Shown in pieces: positions 492 through 53,592 of a stretch of DNA of 64,000 nt. The notes under the pieces were generated by a model. The model did not search any database and was not told the DNA's origin. It worked only from the letters and a program-made list of their open reading frames with translations. The DNA is from an uncultured Lentisphaerota bacterium (lineage in GTDB: Bacteria; Verrucomicrobiota; Kiritimatiellia; CAIQIC01), in NCBI GenBank assembly GCA_903889245.1, contig CAISWQ010000020.1, forward strand, positions 1-64,000, in the 5' to 3' direction. The position numbers and the translations under genes are program-made. Within the stretch, counting starts at the first letter, position 1; each line of letters begins with the position of its first letter.

Positions 492-2330
<1,839 letters not shown>

Positions 2331-2406
2331 GGTTTAGCTTTGCCAATATTTTGCTCAGCCAAATTTTTGGCGCAAGCAACGTTAAATCTTTGGGGCTGTT
2401 GGTGCA

Positions 2407-4359
2407 TTATGGGCCTCTCATTTCCCCAAGAATCTGCACGGCTTTCCGATAAAAATCGGTCTCCTTGTGGAAACTAATCATTAACTCTGAGGTCGCCCTC
2501 GTTAGTGTGATGTACACAAGGTTCTGCTCCACTCGTTTCGACCACTTGCCCGCGCCAAATCTATCCATAACGACAATTGCGCAACGGTAGGTGAGCCCTT
2601 GCGAGCTAAAGGATGTCACAAGATTTACCGATGACTTACGGACTTTCTCGTATTGCTCCAAATCAGTCGGATCCGGTCGCGAGACAATGTATTGAGCATA
2701 TTGTCCGAAGGTCTTAAGCAATGTTGACTTCCAATACCGATGACTGAAGGCCACTCCGCTATCCCAAAAGCATTTGAGAATATGCTGGAGTAGTCCCTCC
2801 TTGTCTACGTTCCCTTGCTCGTCTTTCGCAGAATCGGACATAGGGTAAATGACAGCAATCTCATCAGGTGAGAAGCCGTCCTTCACCCATTCTTGGTACT
2901 TCGAGAGAATTTTCAGGGCACACGCAGCAGAATCTGCATTGAAGGCAACCGTCGGCAGTGGGCCATGCCGCACGCTGGCCAAACGGTGTGGTTCCTGCAA
3001 TGTGCGGACATACTTATCGGACATTTGGAGCGCGAACTGGCTAATTTCTGTGGTGTTTCGGTAGTTATTCGTTAAATGAACTTTGCGCTCAGGTCGTAAC
3101 CGTGTTCGATCATAGAAGCGTTCAGTATCATAGATGTTCTGTTCCGGATCCTCTACGAATACGACATTGCCGTTCTCACGGTCGTGAGTGGCGCATACGC
3201 ACATGACGATATGCGGATCGGGAAGGTTATGTCCTTCGTCTATCAGCATAAAATCAAACTGCTGCTCAATGTTCTCCTGATTGTCGGAAATAAATTTTGC
3301 AAATGCCTTTTCGTCCGGGAAATTGCCCTTCCGGGGCAGTGCTCTCCAAGTTTCCTCACCAAAGATGGTTCGGAACAGGTCGTAGTATGTGCCCACTAGA
3401 AATCGTGGGTCATCAAGGTTGATGGATCGGTGTAGAAGATTGTACCGAAACTCATCGATCAACTCTCGCTGGCGGCCGATATAGGCAACCTTTGTATCAG
3501 GGAGGCGCGCGAGTTGGGAAAACATGTGCTGAAGAAGAAGCGTCTTGCCGCTCCCAGCAACGCCTTCGATGATGAGATGGCCAGGTTTCTGAAAAACTTT
3601 GGACAGATACTCTGTTGCGATCTTCTCCTGCTCCTCGTCCATGCGAATAAGGGCGTCTTCGGAGCCAAGAGGAACCACCGTCTCTTGTACCATGCTGCTA
3701 ACTAGCGAGTCTTCATCATCCGGAGCGCCTAGCACGGTGCTCAAGTAATCTAATTCGGCCATATCGAGATAACTCGGAATATTCCGTTTTCTCATATTGC
3801 AGAGCTTGTTGACGGCTCTGTTCGGATTGACCAATAGCGACTCATCTGTAAAGTGCTCCCGGAACAGTGTCGAAGTAATTGGCAACCTAATGTCATCCAG
3901 ATTCACGTGAAGCGTAGCAAGCTTGTCGCGCCATTCCTGCTCAGAAATGAATGGTAAGCAGAGCGCGGTGTGGATCCCAAACTTGAGGAACTTTCGATGC
4001 TCACAGAGTTCGTTTCGTGATTCGCATTTTTCCTTGAGTAGGTATAAGCGATCCTTGAGTGCTTGCCCTGGATTCTTTTCCGTTTTCCCAGAGGTATGGA
4101 TAACGCGGTCAGGCGTGAGTCCCTGGATTTGTTCGACGCGCCAATCCTTGACCTCAAGCAGCAAAACGCCAACAGTTTTGTGGTGGACAACGAAGTCGAT
4201 TTCAGCCTCCTGACTTCGCCCAGTACAACGGTGCGTGTGAATGAGTTCAACATTTGTCCAGATCATGAATTCGTCAGGGAAGTGTTTCTGGAAGAAATCA
4301 AAGATGATGCGTTCGCCGTCACTCCGGCACCGATCACGGGGCATGATCATTTTCGCCAT
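2407..4359 (-). CDS. NERD-domain superfamily I helicase-like protein
   Basis: This is a 650-residue soluble protein with three visible parts. An N-terminal NERD (nuclease-related) domain covers about residues 10-120, with EAEIDFVV at 52-59 and LLEVKDW at 67-73 as the PD-(D/E)XK-like core. A P-loop GVAGSGKT lies at about 266-273, with a Walker B DEGH at about 374-377 and NYRNT near 432. A UvrD/Rep-type C-terminal motif YITLTRATSEL is present. It probably acts on DNA as an ATP-driven nuclease-helicase; such architectures are common in defence or repair islands, and the function here is inferred. I chose the ATG at 4357-4359 because AAGGAGG precedes it by six bases; a longer reading frame starts nine codons earlier without that site. 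It interrupts the nuo operon between nuoK and nuoL and is visibly AT-richer than its neighbours, suggesting acquisition. Confidence 0.85.
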   Translation of the reverse strand: MAKMIMPRDRCRSDGERIIFDFFQKHFPDEFMIWTNVELIHTHRCTGRSQEAEIDFVVHHKTVGVLLLEVKDWRVEQIQGLTPDRVIHTSGKTEKNPGQALKDRLYLLKEKCESRNELCEHRKFLKFGIHTALCLPFISEQEWRDKLATLHVNLDDIRLPITSTLFREHFTDESLLVNPNRAVNKLCNMRKRNIPSYLDMAELDYLSTVLGAPDDEDSLVSSMVQETVVPLGSEDALIRMDEEQEKIATEYLSKVFQKPGHLIIEGVAGSGKTLLLQHMFSQLARLPDTKVAYIGRQRELIDEFRYNLLHRSINLDDPRFLVGTYYDLFRTIFGEETWRALPRKGNFPDEKAFAKFISDNQENIEQQFDFMLIDEGHNLPDPHIVMCVCATHDRENGNVVFVEDPEQNIYDTERFYDRTRLRPERKVHLTNNYRNTTEISQFALQMSDKYVRTLQEPHRLASVRHGPLPTVAFNADSAACALKILSKYQEWVKDGFSPDEIAVIYPMSDSAKDEQGNVDKEGLLQHILKCFWDSGVAFSHRYWKSTLLKTFGQYAQYIVSRPDPTDLEQYEKVRKSSVNLVTSFSSQGLTYRCAIVVMDRFGAGKWSKRVEQNLVYITLTRATSELMISFHKETDFYRKAVQILGEMRGP

Positions 4360-4396
4360 TTGATCCCTCCTTCTGTGTCTAAACAAGATTCACAGA

Positions 4397-4513
4397 ATTT
4401 TTCCAAGGTTTGGAAACGGGAACCGGTGTTTTTTCCAAGCATTGGAAAAGTTAGGCGTGAAATTTTCCAATGCTTGGAAAAAACCGGTGTTTGGTTTTCC
4501 AACCTCTGGAAAA
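4397..4513. repeat. Phased palindrome array, 4 units
   Basis: Four copies of a TTTTCCAnnnnTGGAAAA palindrome start at about 4400, 4431, 4463 and 4495, giving periods of 31, 32 and 32 bp. The 12-13 bp between them are not conserved. A half-site (TTTGGAAAAG) follows near 4527. The array fills the gap between nuoK and the NERD-helicase gene. Confidence 0.9.
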
Positions 4514-4540
4514 CCGGCTGCGGGCTTTGGAAAAGTTGGG

Positions 4541-4849
4541 TCATCCTTTCAGGCTCCGCAGCAGGTCGGTGACGATGGTGGCGCGGCGGCGGAACAGGGC
4601 GACGATGATGGCGAGGCCGATGGCGACCTCGGCGGCGGCGATGGCGATGATGAAGGTGGCAAGGACCTGGCCCTCGGCGTGGCCGCCGTAGCGCGAGAAG
4701 GCGACGAGCGCGAGGTTCGCCGCGTTCAGGTTCAGCTCCAGCCCCATGAACACGAGCAGCGCGTTCCGGCGCAGGACGATGCAGGCGAGGCCGAGCGCGA
4801 AGAGCGCGCCGCTGACGGCGAGGTAGTGCTCGAGGCCGACGTGCATCAT
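4541..4849 (-). CDS. nuoK: NADH-quinone oxidoreductase subunit K
   Basis: The protein is 102 residues, the normal NuoK size, with three predicted membrane helices. Diagnostic text is LVFMGLELNLNAANL (residues 32-46), which includes the conserved glutamate of helix 2, and AAAEVAIGLAI (71-81), with the second glutamate. NuoK forms part of the E-channel linking quinone chemistry to the antiporter subunits. The start at 4849 overlaps the nuoJ stop as ATGA, so translation is probably coupled. An alternative ATG lies one codon inside. Downstream, the operon is interrupted by a palindrome array and the NERD-helicase gene instead of running directly into nuoL. Confidence 0.96.
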   Translation of the reverse strand: MMHVGLEHYLAVSGALFALGLACIVLRRNALLVFMGLELNLNAANLALVAFSRYGGHAEGQVLATFIIAIAAAEVAIGLAIIVALFRRRATIVTDLLRSLKG

Positions 4850-5352
4850 GGCTTCGTCTCCTTCCGCCCAAGCACGACGACGCCGATGGTCGCGGCGAGC
4901 AGGATGAGCGCGGTGACCTCGACGGGCAGCAGGTAGCGGGTGAAGACGGGCGTCATGACGTTTTCGAGCGTGCCCTCGAACCATTTTTCGGGGGCATCGG
5001 CGAGCGCGCCGGCGCGCTTGAGGACCGGCAGGAGCGCGGCGAGCAACGCGGCGACGGCGAGCGGCGCGCCGAGCCAGCCGAGCAGGTTGCCGTGCCACCA
5101 GCGGCGTTTTTCCCGGAAGTCGAGCAGCATGACGACGAACAGGAACAGGACCATGATCGCGCCGGCGTAGACGAGGATCTGGATCAATGCGAGGAACCAC
5201 GCCTCGAGCAGGAGATAAAGGCCGGCGAGGAAGATGAAGCCGAGCACCATGAAGAGCGCGCTGGCGACGGCGTCGCGGCTGATCAGCACCAGCACGCCGC
5301 ACAGCAGCAGCGCGAGGCTGAAGAACCAGAACATGGCGTCATACACAGTCAT
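4846..5352 (-). CDS. nuoJ: NADH-quinone oxidoreductase subunit J
   Basis: NuoJ is a membrane subunit of complex I. It has 168 residues with about five hydrophobic helices. LIQILVYAGAIMVLFLFVVM (about residues 57-76) is the strongly conserved NuoJ helix with its pi-bulge glycine region. The C-terminus has the usual LPVEVTALILLAATIGVVVL helix before a short charged tail. It starts at the ATG at 5350-5352. It is separated from nuoI by a 331-base gap filled with repeats, whereas nuoK overlaps its stop codon. Confidence 0.96.
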   Translation of the reverse strand: MTVYDAMFWFFSLALLLCGVLVLISRDAVASALFMVLGFIFLAGLYLLLEAWFLALIQILVYAGAIMVLFLFVVMLLDFREKRRWWHGNLLGWLGAPLAVAALLAALLPVLKRAGALADAPEKWFEGTLENVMTPVFTRYLLPVEVTALILLAATIGVVVLGRKETKP

Positions 5353-5432
5353 GATGAAACCTGAAAAAGAAACCGGAAACTTGAGACCTGAAAGCAGAAA
5401 ACAGAAAGCGGAAACCTGAAAGAAGAGAGGAG
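5353..5432. repeat. Word repeat (GAAACCTGAAA type)
   Basis: This A-rich low-complexity tract is built from variants of GAAACCTGAAAG and CAGAAAACAGAAAG. It lies immediately upstream of nuoJ. It resembles one half of the inverted word repeats seen at 51849-51909 and is related to the TTTCAGGTTTCAG text at 26122-26232. Confidence 0.7.
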
Positions 5433-5433
5433 A

Positions 5434-5655
5434 GCGCCGCGTGAGGTCACGCGGCCTACAACGGACCCGATCTTGTTGTAGGCCGGGTCACCGACCCGGC
5501 GGGCCCTGCTATAGCTTCCGTTGTGGGCGGGGTTTATAACCCCGCGAACCCAGCCCAACGTTGGCGCGGGGTTGCAAACCCCGCCCACAAAGAGGGGCCG
5601 GCTGTAACGGCGGTCTGCGACCGCCGACGGCGACCGCAGGTCGCCGCTACAGAAA
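5434..5655. repeat. Cluster of five GC-rich hairpins
   Basis: Successive perfect or near-perfect hairpins are GCCGCGTGA/TCACGCGGC (5436-5455), GCCGGGTC/GACCCGGC (about 5479-5498), GCGGGGTT-tat-AACCCCGC (5527-5545), GCGGGGTT-gca-AACCCCGC (5566-5584) and the double hairpin at about 5605-5652. The third and fourth face each other with TTGTGGGC / GCCCACAA ends, forming a larger cruciform-like unit. The rest of the 331-base nuoI-nuoJ gap is the word repeat before it; no gene is seen. Confidence 0.8.
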
Positions 5656-5683
5656 GCACTCCAACATTTGTTCTCGCGCGCGG

Positions 5684-6187
5684 TCATTTCTTCTTCCACT
5701 TGCAAATCGGGTCGTCGTGGATGCCACCGAGCTCCAGCAGCTTGTCCTTGTGGAACTCGAGCTCCGAGCGTTTATAGCCGGTGACGGCGAAATCCTGCTT
5801 CAGAAAAATCGCCTGCTCGGGGCAGACTTCCTCGCACTGGCCACAGTAGATGCAGCGGGTCATGTCTATGATGAAATCCTCGGGTTCCTTCTCGATCCTG
5901 GCCTCGGCGGGCGCGGAGTCGTCGCGGCGACCGGGGAGGACGCGGATGGCCTTGGGCGGGCAGACGAACTCGCAGAGCTGGCAGGAGACGCACTTGACCT
6001 GGCCGGCCTGGTTGCGGACGAGCGTCGGCGCGCCGCGGTACTTGCCGAGCAGCTTGAACTTTTCCTCGGGATACTGCCGCGTGAATTTCTTGCGCGGGAT
6101 GTGCTTCAGCGTCCGCCACATGCCGGCGAGGATCTGCGGCAGGTAGAGCCGGTCGAGCAGCGTGAGCTTGGGGCGGCGGACTTTCAT
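5684..6187 (-). CDS. nuoI: NADH-quinone oxidoreductase subunit I (two [4Fe-4S])
   Basis: The protein has 167 residues. Two ferredoxin-type clusters are complete: Cys66, Cys69, Cys72 and Cys76, then Cys112, Cys115, Cys118 and Cys122. Each has the CxxCxxCxxxCP spacing, and they hold N6a and N6b in the electron path from NuoG to NuoB. The N-terminus has an amphipathic segment (LPQILAGMWRTLKHI) that docks at the membrane. The start at 6187 overlaps the nuoH stop as ATGA. A lysine-rich tail (CKWKKK) ends the protein. A long repeat region lies between it and nuoJ. Confidence 0.97.
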   Translation of the reverse strand: MKVRRPKLTLLDRLYLPQILAGMWRTLKHIPRKKFTRQYPEEKFKLLGKYRGAPTLVRNQAGQVKCVSCQLCEFVCPPKAIRVLPGRRDDSAPAEARIEKEPEDFIIDMTRCIYCGQCEEVCPEQAIFLKQDFAVTGYKRSELEFHKDKLLELGGIHDDPICKWKKK

Positions 6188-7296: not shown

Positions 7297-8918
7297 CCTT
7301 CGCTGCCGATGTCTTCCCATGTCCAGCCCTTCAGGGCCGGGGTTTCATCCGCGAGCGCCGCGAACACTTTTCCAAGGCTTGGAAAGTCGGGGGCCGGTTT
7401 TTTCCAAGCCTTGGAAACCGCCGCCAGCAGGTTGCGCAGAATTTCCCATTCCGGCCGCGCCTGCCCCGGCGCGGCCAGCGCCGGGTTGATTTTTTGCACG
7501 CGGCCCTTCGCGTTGATGAACGTGCCGCCCTTCTCCGCGAACGAGACGCCGGGCAGCACGACGTGTGCGGCATCCGTCGTCGCGCCCGGCAGGATATCCA
7601 GCACGACGAGTAAATCCAGCTTCGCCAGCAGTTCCGCGCGAAGGCCCGCGGCAACCGCGTCTTCGCCCAGCACGAGCAGAGCCTTGATTTCGCCGCGCTC
7701 GATGCCGGCGGCGATTTCCGCAATGCGGCTGCCCGGCGGGTTGGCAGCAACTCCGGCGAGCTGCGCGCCGCGCATGTTCGGATTACGGTCGGCGTTGAGC
7801 AGGAAATTATCGGCGATATCGGTGCGCGGCACGCTGTCGAGCAGGCCGCTTTCCAAGGCTTGGAAAAGTTTGGCGAAGAGGAACAGCTCCTCGGTCGTCG
7901 CGCAGGCGGAGCCGAGGCCGGCGATCTTGCTGCCCGCGGCGCGAACAGCGGCGAGTCGCTCGGCGACGTGCGCGATGGCGTCGGCCCATGTCGCGTCCTG
8001 CCTGCCAAGCTGCGGCGCGGTCAGGCGGTCGGGGTCGTTGATGAACTTGTAGTTGAGGCGGCCGTAGTCGCACATCCAGCACTGGTTGATCGCGGCGTTG
8101 TCGCGCGGGGTCTGGCGGTAGACGACGCCCTCGCGCGACCAGATGGTCGTGTTGCAGCCGGTGGCGCAGTGCGGGCAGATGCTTGCGGTTTCCTTGAGGA
8201 ACCAGACGCGCTGGCGGAAGCGGAAGTCGGTCGAGGTCAGCGCGCCGACCGGACAGAGATCCACGATGTTGAGATCGTAGTTGGTCGCCGGCTCCCGGCC
8301 GGGATAGCTCGCGAGCGTCGAGCGGCTGCCGCGCTTGACGAAGCCGAGGCAGTCCTGCCCCGCGACGTCGCGCATGAAGCGGATGCAACGCGAGCAAAGG
8401 ATGCAGCGCTCGTCATCGAGCGTGATCTTTTCGTTGAGCACGACGCGCTTGGGCTTGTGCTCCTTCTCCTCGACGAAGCGGCTGCAACCCTGGCCATAGT
8501 CCACGGCGAGCTCCTGCAGGCGGCATTCGCCGGCCTGGTCGCAGATCGGGCAATCGAGCGGATGATTGATCAGCAGGAACTCCATCACGCCGCGACGCGC
8601 CTTGATGACGCGCGGGGTGCGGGTCAGCACGACCATGCCCTCGCTGACGGTGGTGTTGCACGCGATGATCAGCTTGGGGCCGAAGTTGACGCGCGGCTGG
8701 CCCTGCGCATCGAGCACCGGCTTGCGGTCGGGGCCGAGCTGCGGCAGACCGACCTCGACGAGGCACATGCGGCAGTTGCCCGCGATGGCGAGTTTCGGGT
8801 GATAGCAGAAGTGCGGAATCTCGATCCCCGCCAACCGCGCGGCCTCGATCAGATTGGTGCCCACCGCCGCCTGCACGGCGCGGCCATCGATCGTCAGGTT
8901 GACATTTTCCACGCTCAT
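7284..8918 (-). CDS. nuoG: NADH-quinone oxidoreductase subunit G
   Basis: The protein has 544 residues. The N-terminal [2Fe-2S] ferredoxin domain has Cys38, Cys49, Cys52 and Cys87. Next comes the His-Cys [4Fe-4S] region with CPICDQAGEC, then the CILCSRCIRFMRD ferredoxin-like clusters. Then CPHCATGC and CWMCDYGR begin the molybdopterin-oxidoreductase-like domain, which has lost cofactor in this family. It is short compared with the long proteobacterial NuoG because the C-terminal part is reduced. I placed the start at the ATG at 8916-8918, overlapping the ORF6N stop by one base; a TTG one codon upstream is less likely. Three copies of the TTTTCCAAGGCTTGGAAAA palindrome lie in frame (7368, 7400, 7849), coding FQALE, SKAWKK and FPSLGK. 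Confidence 0.95.
   Translation of the reverse strand: MSVENVNLTIDGRAVQAAVGTNLIEAARLAGIEIPHFCYHPKLAIAGNCRMCLVEVGLPQLGPDRKPVLDAQGQPRVNFGPKLIIACNTTVSEGMVVLTRTPRVIKARRGVMEFLLINHPLDCPICDQAGECRLQELAVDYGQGCSRFVEEKEHKPKRVVLNEKITLDDERCILCSRCIRFMRDVAGQDCLGFVKRGSRSTLASYPGREPATNYDLNIVDLCPVGALTSTDFRFRQRVWFLKETASICPHCATGCNTTIWSREGVVYRQTPRDNAAINQCWMCDYGRLNYKFINDPDRLTAPQLGRQDATWADAIAHVAERLAAVRAAGSKIAGLGSACATTEELFLFAKLFQALESGLLDSVPRTDIADNFLLNADRNPNMRGAQLAGVAANPPGSRIAEIAAGIERGEIKALLVLGEDAVAAGLRAELLAKLDLLVVLDILPGATTDAAHVVLPGVSFAEKGGTFINAKGRVQKINPALAAPGQARPEWEILRNLLAAVSKAWKKPAPDFPSLGKVFAALADETPALKGWTWEDIGSEGRDL
7368..7417. repeat. Palindrome array inside nuoG, 2 units
   Basis: The units start at 7368 and 7400, a 32-bp period, each 18 bp of TTTTCCAAGSCTTGGAAA. 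They are read in frame within nuoG and encode SKAWKK and FPSLGK around residues 500-518. Confidence 0.9.
7849..7868. repeat. Single palindrome inside nuoG
   Basis: CTTTCCAAGGCTTGGAAAAG is a perfect 20-bp palindrome in frame in nuoG, encoding FQALE. It has no partner at about 31 bp. Confidence 0.85.
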
Positions 8919-9508
8919 CAACGTCGTGCCTTGCTTCGGTTCACGCGATAGGTGCCACGCGACTCCGCTACGCCAAAGCCGATGCGCTTGCGCGGCGTCT
9001 CGGGCGGCTCGACGAGCTGTTTCATTTCGTCGAGCAGATGCAAGATGGCCCGCTCGTGTTCATCCAGACGCTCGGTCAGCTTGCGCTCCAGTTCGGTCAA
9101 TTTCTTCGCCAGCTCCTGATGACCAGCCAACGATTCGCGCATCTGCACGAACGCGCGGACAACGAACAGGCTCATCTGCACCGCCTGCGGACTGTTCAGC
9201 ATCGCCGCCGCCATGATCGCGCCGTGCTCGGTGAAGACGGAAGGTTGATAGCGCGCTCCGCCATGGCTCGGTTTGCCATCAGATCTTGAGGTCGCAAATT
9301 GCGACCTCAAGATTGCAACCTCTTGAAGATCAATCTGAAAAACAAAGTCTTCCGGGAACCTTTCCTGGTTCCGCTTGACGGCTTCGTTCAGGCGCTTGGT
9401 TGTCACGCCGTAGATTTCGGCGAGGTCGGCATCGAGAATGACGCGCCGGCCGCGCAACTGGAAAATACAACGCGCCACGCGATCAAGAGGGACAAGCGCC
9501 GAACTCAT
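8918..9508 (-). CDS. ORF6N-domain DNA-binding protein
   Basis: The 196-residue protein opens with IFQLRGRRVILDADLAEIYG (residues 15-34), the start of the ORF6N/KilA-N-type DNA-binding domain known from phage and plasmid regulators. RYQPSVFTEHGAIMAAAML near 87-105 is the second conserved block. The C-terminal half is charged and probably coiled-coil (KLTELERKLTERLDEHERAI). What it does in this operon is unknown; regulation is only a guess. It sits between nuoEF and nuoG with an ATGA overlap at its start and a one-base overlap at its end, so it is translated as an operon member. Its GC content looks like that of its neighbours, unlike the NERD gene, so any insertion is probably old. A perfect 15-bp-arm palindrome lies inside it (9283-9313). 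Confidence 0.85.
   Translation of the reverse strand: MSSALVPLDRVARCIFQLRGRRVILDADLAEIYGVTTKRLNEAVKRNQERFPEDFVFQIDLQEVAILRSQFATSRSDGKPSHGGARYQPSVFTEHGAIMAAAMLNSPQAVQMSLFVVRAFVQMRESLAGHQELAKKLTELERKLTERLDEHERAILHLLDEMKQLVEPPETPRKRIGFGVAESRGTYRVNRSKARR
9283..9313. repeat. 31-bp palindrome inside the ORF6N gene
   Basis: The arms ATCTTGAGGTCGCAA and TTGCGACCTCAAGAT are perfect over 15 bp around a single central base. On the minus strand it encodes ILRSQFATSR, a segment that is itself conserved in ORF6N proteins. The palindrome may therefore be a by-product of protein conservation or a real binding site. Confidence 0.7.
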
Positions 9509-51795: not shown

Positions 51796-51845
51796 TTTTC
51801 CAAGGCTTGGAAAATTTTCCAATCTTTTTTCCAAGCCTTGGAAGA
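51796..51845. repeat. Phased palindrome array, 2 units plus a half-site
   Basis: Full units start at 51796 and 51827 (31 bp apart), with a half-site TTTTCCAA at 51815. It lies upstream of the GH29 gene. Confidence 0.9.
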
Positions 51846-52287: not shown

Positions 52288-53592
52288 ATGCCGACACACT
52301 CGCTTGATTTCGACTATGGAGACAAGACCATTCAAGAGTTCGTCCTACTTTTTAAAAATGGACAATTAAATCTGGAGCCTGGCTTCCAGCGCTCTTCTGT
52401 CTGGACATTATCCGACAGAAAAAAACTGATTGAATCACTGTTGCAAAATTACCCGATACCGTCAGTCTTTCTCTACAAGCAGAACGATGACGGGAAATTA
52501 CGGTACGATGTGATTGACGGAAAACAGCGATTGGAAACCGTTTTAATGTTCCAAGGCGCAGGACATTTTCGCGGGTCGCGGTTTGATGTAAAGGCACGGC
52601 TTGGACCAGACGAAGGCGTCGAAGAATGGGATTGGTCGAGACTGCAAAATCGTGGTCATGAATACCGCTTGGCGGGGTACAAATTTCAGACGGTTGAAAT
52701 AACTGGAGATCTTTCGGACATCATAGACTTGTTTGTTCGGATTAATTCTACAGGCAAACGACTAACTGGTGCAGAAAAACGCCATGCAAGATTTTTCCGT
52801 AGCGACTTCCTTAAGCAAGCTGGACGCCTTGCTGAAAACAGGCAACGGTTTTTCCTCGAAAACCGGATTCTTTCGCCCGGCCAAGTCAGCCGAATGAAGC
52901 ACGTGGAACTTGTCTGTGAGTTGATGGCCTCATTACAGTCCCGAGGTCTGATAAATAAAAAGAAAGCACTCGACGGGATTATTGGTGGACAGGCCATAGA
53001 TTTGCGAACACTCCGTCGAGCGACTCAAGAAACCGTCAGAATTCTGAATCTCGTCAGGAAGGTATTCCCTGAAATACGCTCCACACGTTTTGCGAACTCT
53101 GCTGATTTTTATTCATTGTTTGTTTTCTTGTGGGAGCTAGACCAAGAAGGTTGCATTCTTTCGGATATCAAACGGAACCGGCAAGCACAGCGGCTTCTGG
53201 TCTGGCTGTCCAATGGTGTCAGCGAGGTACGTCAGCAGCAACGAAAGGCAGAAGGCGCAAATCCCGATCAGCGACTGTTTGCTGACTATTTACTCACTAT
53301 TCAAGGAGACACAGACAGTTTAGCGACCAGACAGCGCCGAGCTGAAATACTGAAACGAGTCTTCGGCGGGTTATTTGAAAAAAAGGATGAGCAACGCGGT
53401 TTCACAATCGAACAAAGAAGACTTCTGTGGCATTCAGAAGAACGGAAACGGTGTCCAGAATGTCGGCGTCCCTTAACGTGGATGAATTTTACGATTGATC
53501 ACATCAAGCCTCATGCTCTTGGTGGAAAATCGACTCTTTCAAATGCGGCTTTGATGTGTCGTTCCTGTAACTCAAGAAAAGGGAAACGATAG
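52288..53592 (+). CDS. DUF262-HNH endonuclease-like protein
   Basis: The 434-residue protein has an N-terminal DUF262 (ParB/GmrSD-like) domain, with EPGFQRSSVWTLSDRKKLIE (about 30-49), PIPSVFLYKQ and the signature DVIDGKQRLETVLMF (about 73-87), then LFVRINSTGKRLTGAE. The C-terminal HNH nuclease has CPECRRPL (Zn Cys pair), FTIDHIKPHALGGKSTLSNA and MCRSCNSRKGKR (second Cys pair and catalytic His/Asn). Such proteins are related to type IV, modification-dependent restriction enzymes. By analogy it may restrict foreign DNA; the target is unknown. It stands alone, is visibly AT-richer than its neighbours and is flanked by word repeats, which suggests acquisition. ATG with GAGG upstream. Confidence 0.88.
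   Translation: MPTHSLDFDYGDKTIQEFVLLFKNGQLNLEPGFQRSSVWTLSDRKKLIESLLQNYPIPSVFLYKQNDDGKLRYDVIDGKQRLETVLMFQGAGHFRGSRFDVKARLGPDEGVEEWDWSRLQNRGHEYRLAGYKFQTVEITGDLSDIIDLFVRINSTGKRLTGAEKRHARFFRSDFLKQAGRLAENRQRFFLENRILSPGQVSRMKHVELVCELMASLQSRGLINKKKALDGIIGGQAIDLRTLRRATQETVRILNLVRKVFPEIRSTRFANSADFYSLFVFLWELDQEGCILSDIKRNRQAQRLLVWLSNGVSEVRQQQRKAEGANPDQRLFADYLLTIQGDTDSLATRQRRAEILKRVFGGLFEKKDEQRGFTIEQRRLLWHSEERKRCPECRRPLTWMNFTIDHIKPHALGGKSTLSNAALMCRSCNSRKGKR

Follow-up and report, generated by a model that had tools for sequence, protein, structure and literature searches.

The complex I (nuo) operon of this uncultured Lentisphaerota bacterium carried, between nuoK and nuoL and on the same strand, a gene encoding a 650-amino-acid (aa) protein composed of a NERD nuclease domain and a UvrD-like SF1 helicase (positions 2407 - 4359, minus strand, of the 64,000-nucleotide stretch of DNA analysed, further referred to as the window). 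The original prediction had placed such a gene here, and both the open reading frame (ORF) and the Pfam identification of its flanks agreed with it. Proteins of this kind are known; what is new is the carriage within complex I operons. Judging from sequence features, we consider it somewhat probable that the gene was acquired horizontally, rides on the nuo transcript as a passenger and acts as a one-protein, DNA-targeting defence, within a wider habit of Verrucomicrobiota nuo operons to harbour cargo.

The nuoK-nuoL junction and the inserted gene

The insertion was flanked upstream by nuoK (4541 - 4846, minus strand; stop codon at 4541 - 4543), itself adjoining nuoJ (4846 - 5352, minus strand), and downstream by nuoL (492 - 2330, minus strand; ATG at 2330), all assigned with Pfam. 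The NERD-helicase gene, with its ATG at 4359 in a frame that extends open to 4386, was the sole gene of the nuoK-nuoL interval, which measured 2210 nucleotides (nt; 2331 - 4540, minus strand) versus 2 nt in two congeners. Its leader, from the nuoK stop codon to the gene (4360 - 4540, minus strand), contained palindromes in a phased array, as well as a ribosome site, GGAGG. At the insert ends, no integrase, transposase or long target duplication was found and at most 2 - 3 bases were common with the empty site, so that a classical mobile element or genomic island was rejected.

Three congeners, from lake metagenomes filed under Verrucomicrobia or Lentisphaerae (SCQF01000039, G001; CAIWHP010000119, G002; CAITZM010000187, G003), carried an orthologous nuo operon, with a nuoL identity of 89 - 91%. 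The empty site to be looked for in close relatives was present in two of them (G002 and G003), in which the nuoK stop codon is followed by 2 nt and the nuoL ATG. The same junction of G001 comprised 872 bases with an unrelated 155-aa ORF, which had no match in Pfam or PADLOC. A four-gene tree paired the present genome with G001 (81% support), the latter likely being its sister. Across the 76 of 80 nuoL loci in which the gap was measured, the remaining four being without nuoK, it did not exceed 200 bp in 70 and measured 645 - 1750 bp in six.

The NERD-helicase gene was found in one of 387 genomes of the phylum, namely its own (E ≤ 1e-20), and was absent from all three congeners, so that a conserved nuo operon member, which would have spoken against the original prediction, was rejected. 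Likewise, a search of 56 relatives' genomes retrieved it from its own genome only. Phage records contained no close relative, plasmid records yielded one match (Euhalothece plasmid pEu1, 23.5% identity), the GTDB and viral contigs gave no confirmed relative, and PDB sequences gave no match at E ≤ 0.1.

The gene was AT-rich, as had been predicted, with a GC content of 0.491 versus a mean of 0.655 (standard deviation 0.049) for the 37 window ORFs of at least 150 aa, a crude set that includes some wrong frames. Its GC3 was 0.56; that of nuoL, nuoG, nuoEF and nuoD was 0.86 - 0.91. Its composition was clearly deviant, contrary to a match with the genome average, and by GC it ranked second-lowest among 40 window ORFs. 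The lowest value (0.465) belonged to a single, type IV restriction-like gene (52288 - 53592), which encodes GmrSD_N and HNH domains and is adjoined by palindromes at 51798 - 51843. The low GC content, the single occurrence among 387 genomes and the empty site in two of three congeners together bear out the earlier view of an acquired gene of a defence-type family.

The strong ribosome site of its own that had been attributed to the gene was confirmed, as a well-spaced GGAGG precedes the start codon (AGAAGGAGGGATCAA-ATG). It had also been stated that nuoL lacks a clear ribosome site; this held true but carries little weight, because nuoG, nuoH, nuoJ and nuoM of the window lack one as well. The 180-bp leader showed no sigma-70-like promoter, the site counts in the region being at chance level; this would fit expression from the nuo transcript without demonstrating it. 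In G003, nuoL starts two bases past the nuoK stop codon and is preceded by AAAGGA, indicating that nuoL translation is probably coupled to nuoK in the empty state and that the insertion would sever this coupling. The present genome contained a second, diverged nuoL (46%). Such redundancy is not needed for tolerating cargo, because G001, itself bearing an insert, had no second nuoL at E ≤ 1e-100.

Pfam recognized the NERD domain at residues 14 - 115 (6.6e-10, passing the cut-off), as well as SF1-type helicase matches. The best match in the PADLOC library was C3a187 'NERD+UvrD' (2.1e-31), followed by RTasNERD-Hel (3e-13), Nhi (1.1e-11), AbiO (1.5e-11) and GajB (5.7e-10), and the PHROGs matches were DNA-helicase families; no full-length match to the defence library or to NCBIfam attained an equivalog cut-off. 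In an alignment of 13 rows, comprising the protein and 12 homologous ORFs originating from other genomes or, in one case, the Euhalothece plasmid, the NERD core was intact, with EIDF (acidic residue) and LLEVK (ExK) common to the homologues. Similarly, Walker A (GVAGSGKT), Walker B (LIDEG) and helicase motifs III - VI (EDPEQ, NYRN, TSFSSQGL, TRA) were present; one aligned row (L001) retained the NERD part and Walker A only. A single-sequence AlphaFold2 model was unusable (mean pLDDT 38).

Among the closest known systems, C3a187 (PDLC01087) resembles the inserted protein in its N-terminal NERD domain followed by an SF1 helicase, with an alignment starting at residue 13. It differs in that the protein matches in three partial stretches (best, 13 - 285 of 650) and, in the genome search, scored 79.5 bits (positions 16 - 464 of 559 aligned) versus 551 and 330 bits for true members; full-length examples occur in the phylum (G242 and G202). 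Nhi and AbiO also combine a nuclease and an SF1 helicase in one protein and are similar in the helicase core, but the match covers only about 90 residues of this core (best, 358 - 450) and the inserted protein is headed by NERD. Nhi has been characterized as a nuclease-helicase that is encoded by a single gene and responds to phage SSB (PMC12904381), and the NERD domain has been listed for both 'Mokosh type I' and 'Nhi-like' (PMC10952713). The likeness to Gabija resides in the UvrD-type core of GajB (5.7e-10), whereas the nuclease is fused here and no GajA is adjacent. RTasNERD-Hel, a partner of defence-associated reverse transcriptases, matches in the NERD domain, but no reverse transcriptase adjoins the gene; in both comparisons, the neighbours are nuoK and nuoL instead. 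Membership of Nhi, Gabija and the reverse transcriptase partners was therefore rejected, given the partial Nhi/AbiO match and the absence of GajA and reverse transcriptase beside the gene. Finally, the HEC and PDC candidates, being island or embedded defence genes, are likewise accessory genes of defence type that occupy an exchangeable site, but the site considered here is a gap in a core respiratory operon, devoid of integrase, tRNA and long direct repeats. A literature search, with most subscription journals falling outside it, retrieved nothing on defence systems in nuo (complex I) or other core or housekeeping operons.

Palindrome array and apparent turnover of cargo

The leader contained three perfect TTCCAANNNTTGGAA palindromes at a spacing of 32 bp (4401, 4433 and 4465; 4401 - 4479, unstranded), and a degenerate fourth copy, in phase, at 4497 - 4511. 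The window held 23 copies versus none expected, spread over 4401 - 61701, and the genome held 1339. Some copies were present in 34 of 56 relatives, ranging from 0 to more than 1300 per genome; the reversed control pattern gave no copies in all genomes except one. At the loci of the genus, 15 of the 16 gaps shorter than 130 bp between neighbouring copies measured 31 or 32 bp (the other, 99 bp). Such a distance corresponds to about three turns of B-DNA. Some of the palindromes fall within nuoG or in the region of predicted ORFs that encodes the N-terminus. Another family of repeats (CTGTAGCGGCGACCTG...), likewise palindromic, occurred at 5349 - 5705 and in other spacers, including nuoI-nuoJ and nuoL-nuoM of the genus. 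No paper on the TTCCAANNNTTGGAA palindrome was retrieved by the literature search, with the same exception of most subscription journals.

The inserts of both the present genome and G001 start past the nuoK stop codon with copies of this palindrome. The array spacer TTGGAAAACCAAAC was unique in G001, its single copy lying at nuoK-nuoL, and occurred in two palindrome-related places of the present genome, one of which is nuoK-nuoL. As the two inserts have this spacer in common, the cargo apparently turned over at a pre-existing spacer. The simplest reading of these sequences is that the array reached the gap in the common ancestor of both genomes and that the gene behind it was swapped later.

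Accessory genes in nuo operons of other genomes

A survey of 152 nuo regions consisted of 81 regions (80 loci, not all from Verrucomicrobiota, as for instance L049, L050, L054 and L056 fall outside, plus the window; 543 junctions, gaps of at least 330 bp) and 71 of 80 further regions (nine duplicates removed; 604 junctions, gaps of at least 400 bp). The operon of the window itself contained a second accessory gene, encoding an ORF6N protein (PADLOC candidate PDC-S05), between nuoEF and nuoG (8918 - 9508, minus strand). ORF6N was found at this junction throughout the genus, namely in the present genome, in L046, as a fragment in L047 and as two copies in L048; the congeners G003 and G001 carried it doubled and as a fragment, respectively. 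It was further found at nuoK-nuoL in L069, L088, L099, L109 and L263. A type II methyltransferase and a restriction enzyme occupied nuoK-nuoL of L098 (1e-74 and 1e-47), a methyltransferase (4e-59) and an unlabelled 219-aa ORF nuoI-nuoJ of L070, and a KilA-N gene (PDC-S22, 2e-128) nuoJ-nuoK of L267. HEC-01A and HEC-01B were present at nuoG-nuoH of Geminisphaera colitermitum TAV2 (L060, 604 - 2753; 3e-154 and 8e-74), a named organism and hence an easier test object than a metagenome genome. This restriction-modification, HEC-01, ORF6N and KilA-N cargo backs the general idea, put forward in the original prediction, of defence genes hidden in the nuo operon. According to PMC12988326, the PDC families are unvalidated candidates, being single genes that are often located outside known islands.

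Other cargo consisted of PDDEXK_3 genes (nuoEF-nuoG in L207 and L209, nuoK-nuoL in L234 and L220), 23S_rRNA_IVP genes (L219, L234, L235, L239, L259, L267, L108 and others), a Y1 transposase (Y1_Tnp; nuoH-nuoI in L055) and a cNMP-binding protein (L056). All labelled cargo was on the nuo strand, with the exception of a solute-binding protein in L253. Since the 23S_rRNA_IVP, PDDEXK_3, Y1_Tnp and solute-binding cargo is non-defence, a nuo location alone is no argument for defence.

The controls consisted of 40 atp regions with 309 junctions and 40 rpl regions with 805 junctions, taken from the genomes to which 50 of the 80 loci belong, of which 48 possessed atpA and 43 rplB. A 23S_rRNA_IVP gene was present in the ATP synthase operon of four of the 40 atp regions (L150, L151, L156 and L162), and because of this a nuo specificity for all cargo was rejected. 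For defence-type cargo, 21 chosen nuo-gap proteins were scanned with PADLOC versus, exhaustively, all control-gap ORFs of at least 85 aa, one of which (1/86) gave a weak match (SduA, 5.2e-8, unplaced to an ORF). PADLOC-type cargo was found in 13 of 152 nuo regions (the window, L046, L047, L048, L069, L088, L099, L109, L263, L060, L070, L098 and L267) versus one of 80 control regions (Fisher p 0.038), corresponding to seven events in 1147 junctions versus one in 1114 (p 0.038), the number and independence of the events being our judgement and the regions being related by descent. Before the SduA match was counted, these values were p 0.005 (regions) and p 0.009 (events). The excess of defence-type cargo in nuo gaps is thus suggestive, since independent events are few, descent inflates the region figure and the events were judged.

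Possible role of the NERD-helicase and its location

The domain order and the intact motifs suggest how the protein may work. A single gene with its palindrome-array leader would have been placed exactly between the nuoK stop codon and the nuoL start codon in the lineage of this species. Most likely, it is read on the nuo transcript and translated from its own ribosome site. The ATP-driven helicase motor would then load on invading DNA, track along it and unwind it, and the PD-(D/E)xK-type NERD domain would cut it, comparable with single-gene defence such as Nhi. The position would reflect a Verrucomicrobiota habit of placing co-directional accessory genes, several of them defence-type, in nuo gaps. 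We infer the acquisition route, the co-transcription, the nuclease and helicase activities and the defence role, the antiviral function being deduced from the domains.

The same domains could belong to a transferred helicase-nuclease for DNA repair or recombination without a defence role, as the SF1A motifs are common to UvrD, HelD and RecB-type enzymes and non-defence NERD proteins are known; SmdA of Staphylococcus aureus is reportedly a NERD protein outside defence. We regard this as unlikely, given that occurrence in one of four congeners and an odd composition are unlike a housekeeping repair gene, and that defence models give the best matches in the library. Quite unlikely is also a neutral or selfish passenger, recently arrived and on its way out of an operon whose gaps tolerate co-directional insertions. 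The many nuo gaps with small mobile-type genes lacking a defence label (IVP, PDDEXK_3 and Y1_Tnp) would fit such a passenger, as would the different cargo at the junction of the sister, pointing to fast turnover, whereas a frame and catalytic residues kept intact over 650 codons and a strong ribosome site argue against it.

That the operon position is itself functional, the gene modulating complex I or linking defence to the respiratory state, appears very unlikely: nearly all nuo cargo is co-directional and defence-type cargo recurs, but the cargo families are mutually unrelated and the gaps differ (nuoEF-nuoG, nuoG-nuoH, nuoH-nuoI, nuoI-nuoJ, nuoJ-nuoK and nuoK-nuoL). That the join is a chimera, created at the repeat array when this metagenome-assembled genome was put together, is highly improbable too. 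The left flank is an array of the 1339-copy palindrome, a typical place of misassembly, and the right junction lies 76 nt past the gene. This right flank is non-repetitive, though, and continues smoothly into nuoL, the ACCATG context being intact, and the separately assembled sister carries an insert at precisely this base, with the near-unique array spacer in both genomes.

Next to the preferred reading of the NERD-helicase as a defence gene carried on the nuo transcript, we tentatively propose, as a broader possibility, that the Verrucomicrobiota nuo operon, nuoK-nuoL foremost, is a recurrent, exchangeable berth for defence cargo of one or two genes on a strong housekeeping transcript, and that the helically phased palindrome array of the genus marks this berth and may aid exchange. 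Defence genes are usually searched for in islands, prophages and integrons. If the proposal is true, part of the immune repertoire of the phylum would reside in respiratory operons, out of reach of island-based searches, and if respiratory operons repeatedly hold such genes, scanning conserved operons for odd genes would reveal more systems, and such operons would also represent a natural setting in which the expression of defence tracks energy metabolism. The congeneric series, with two empty sites and two different cargoes, lends itself to testing directly how an operon can receive cargo and remain intact.
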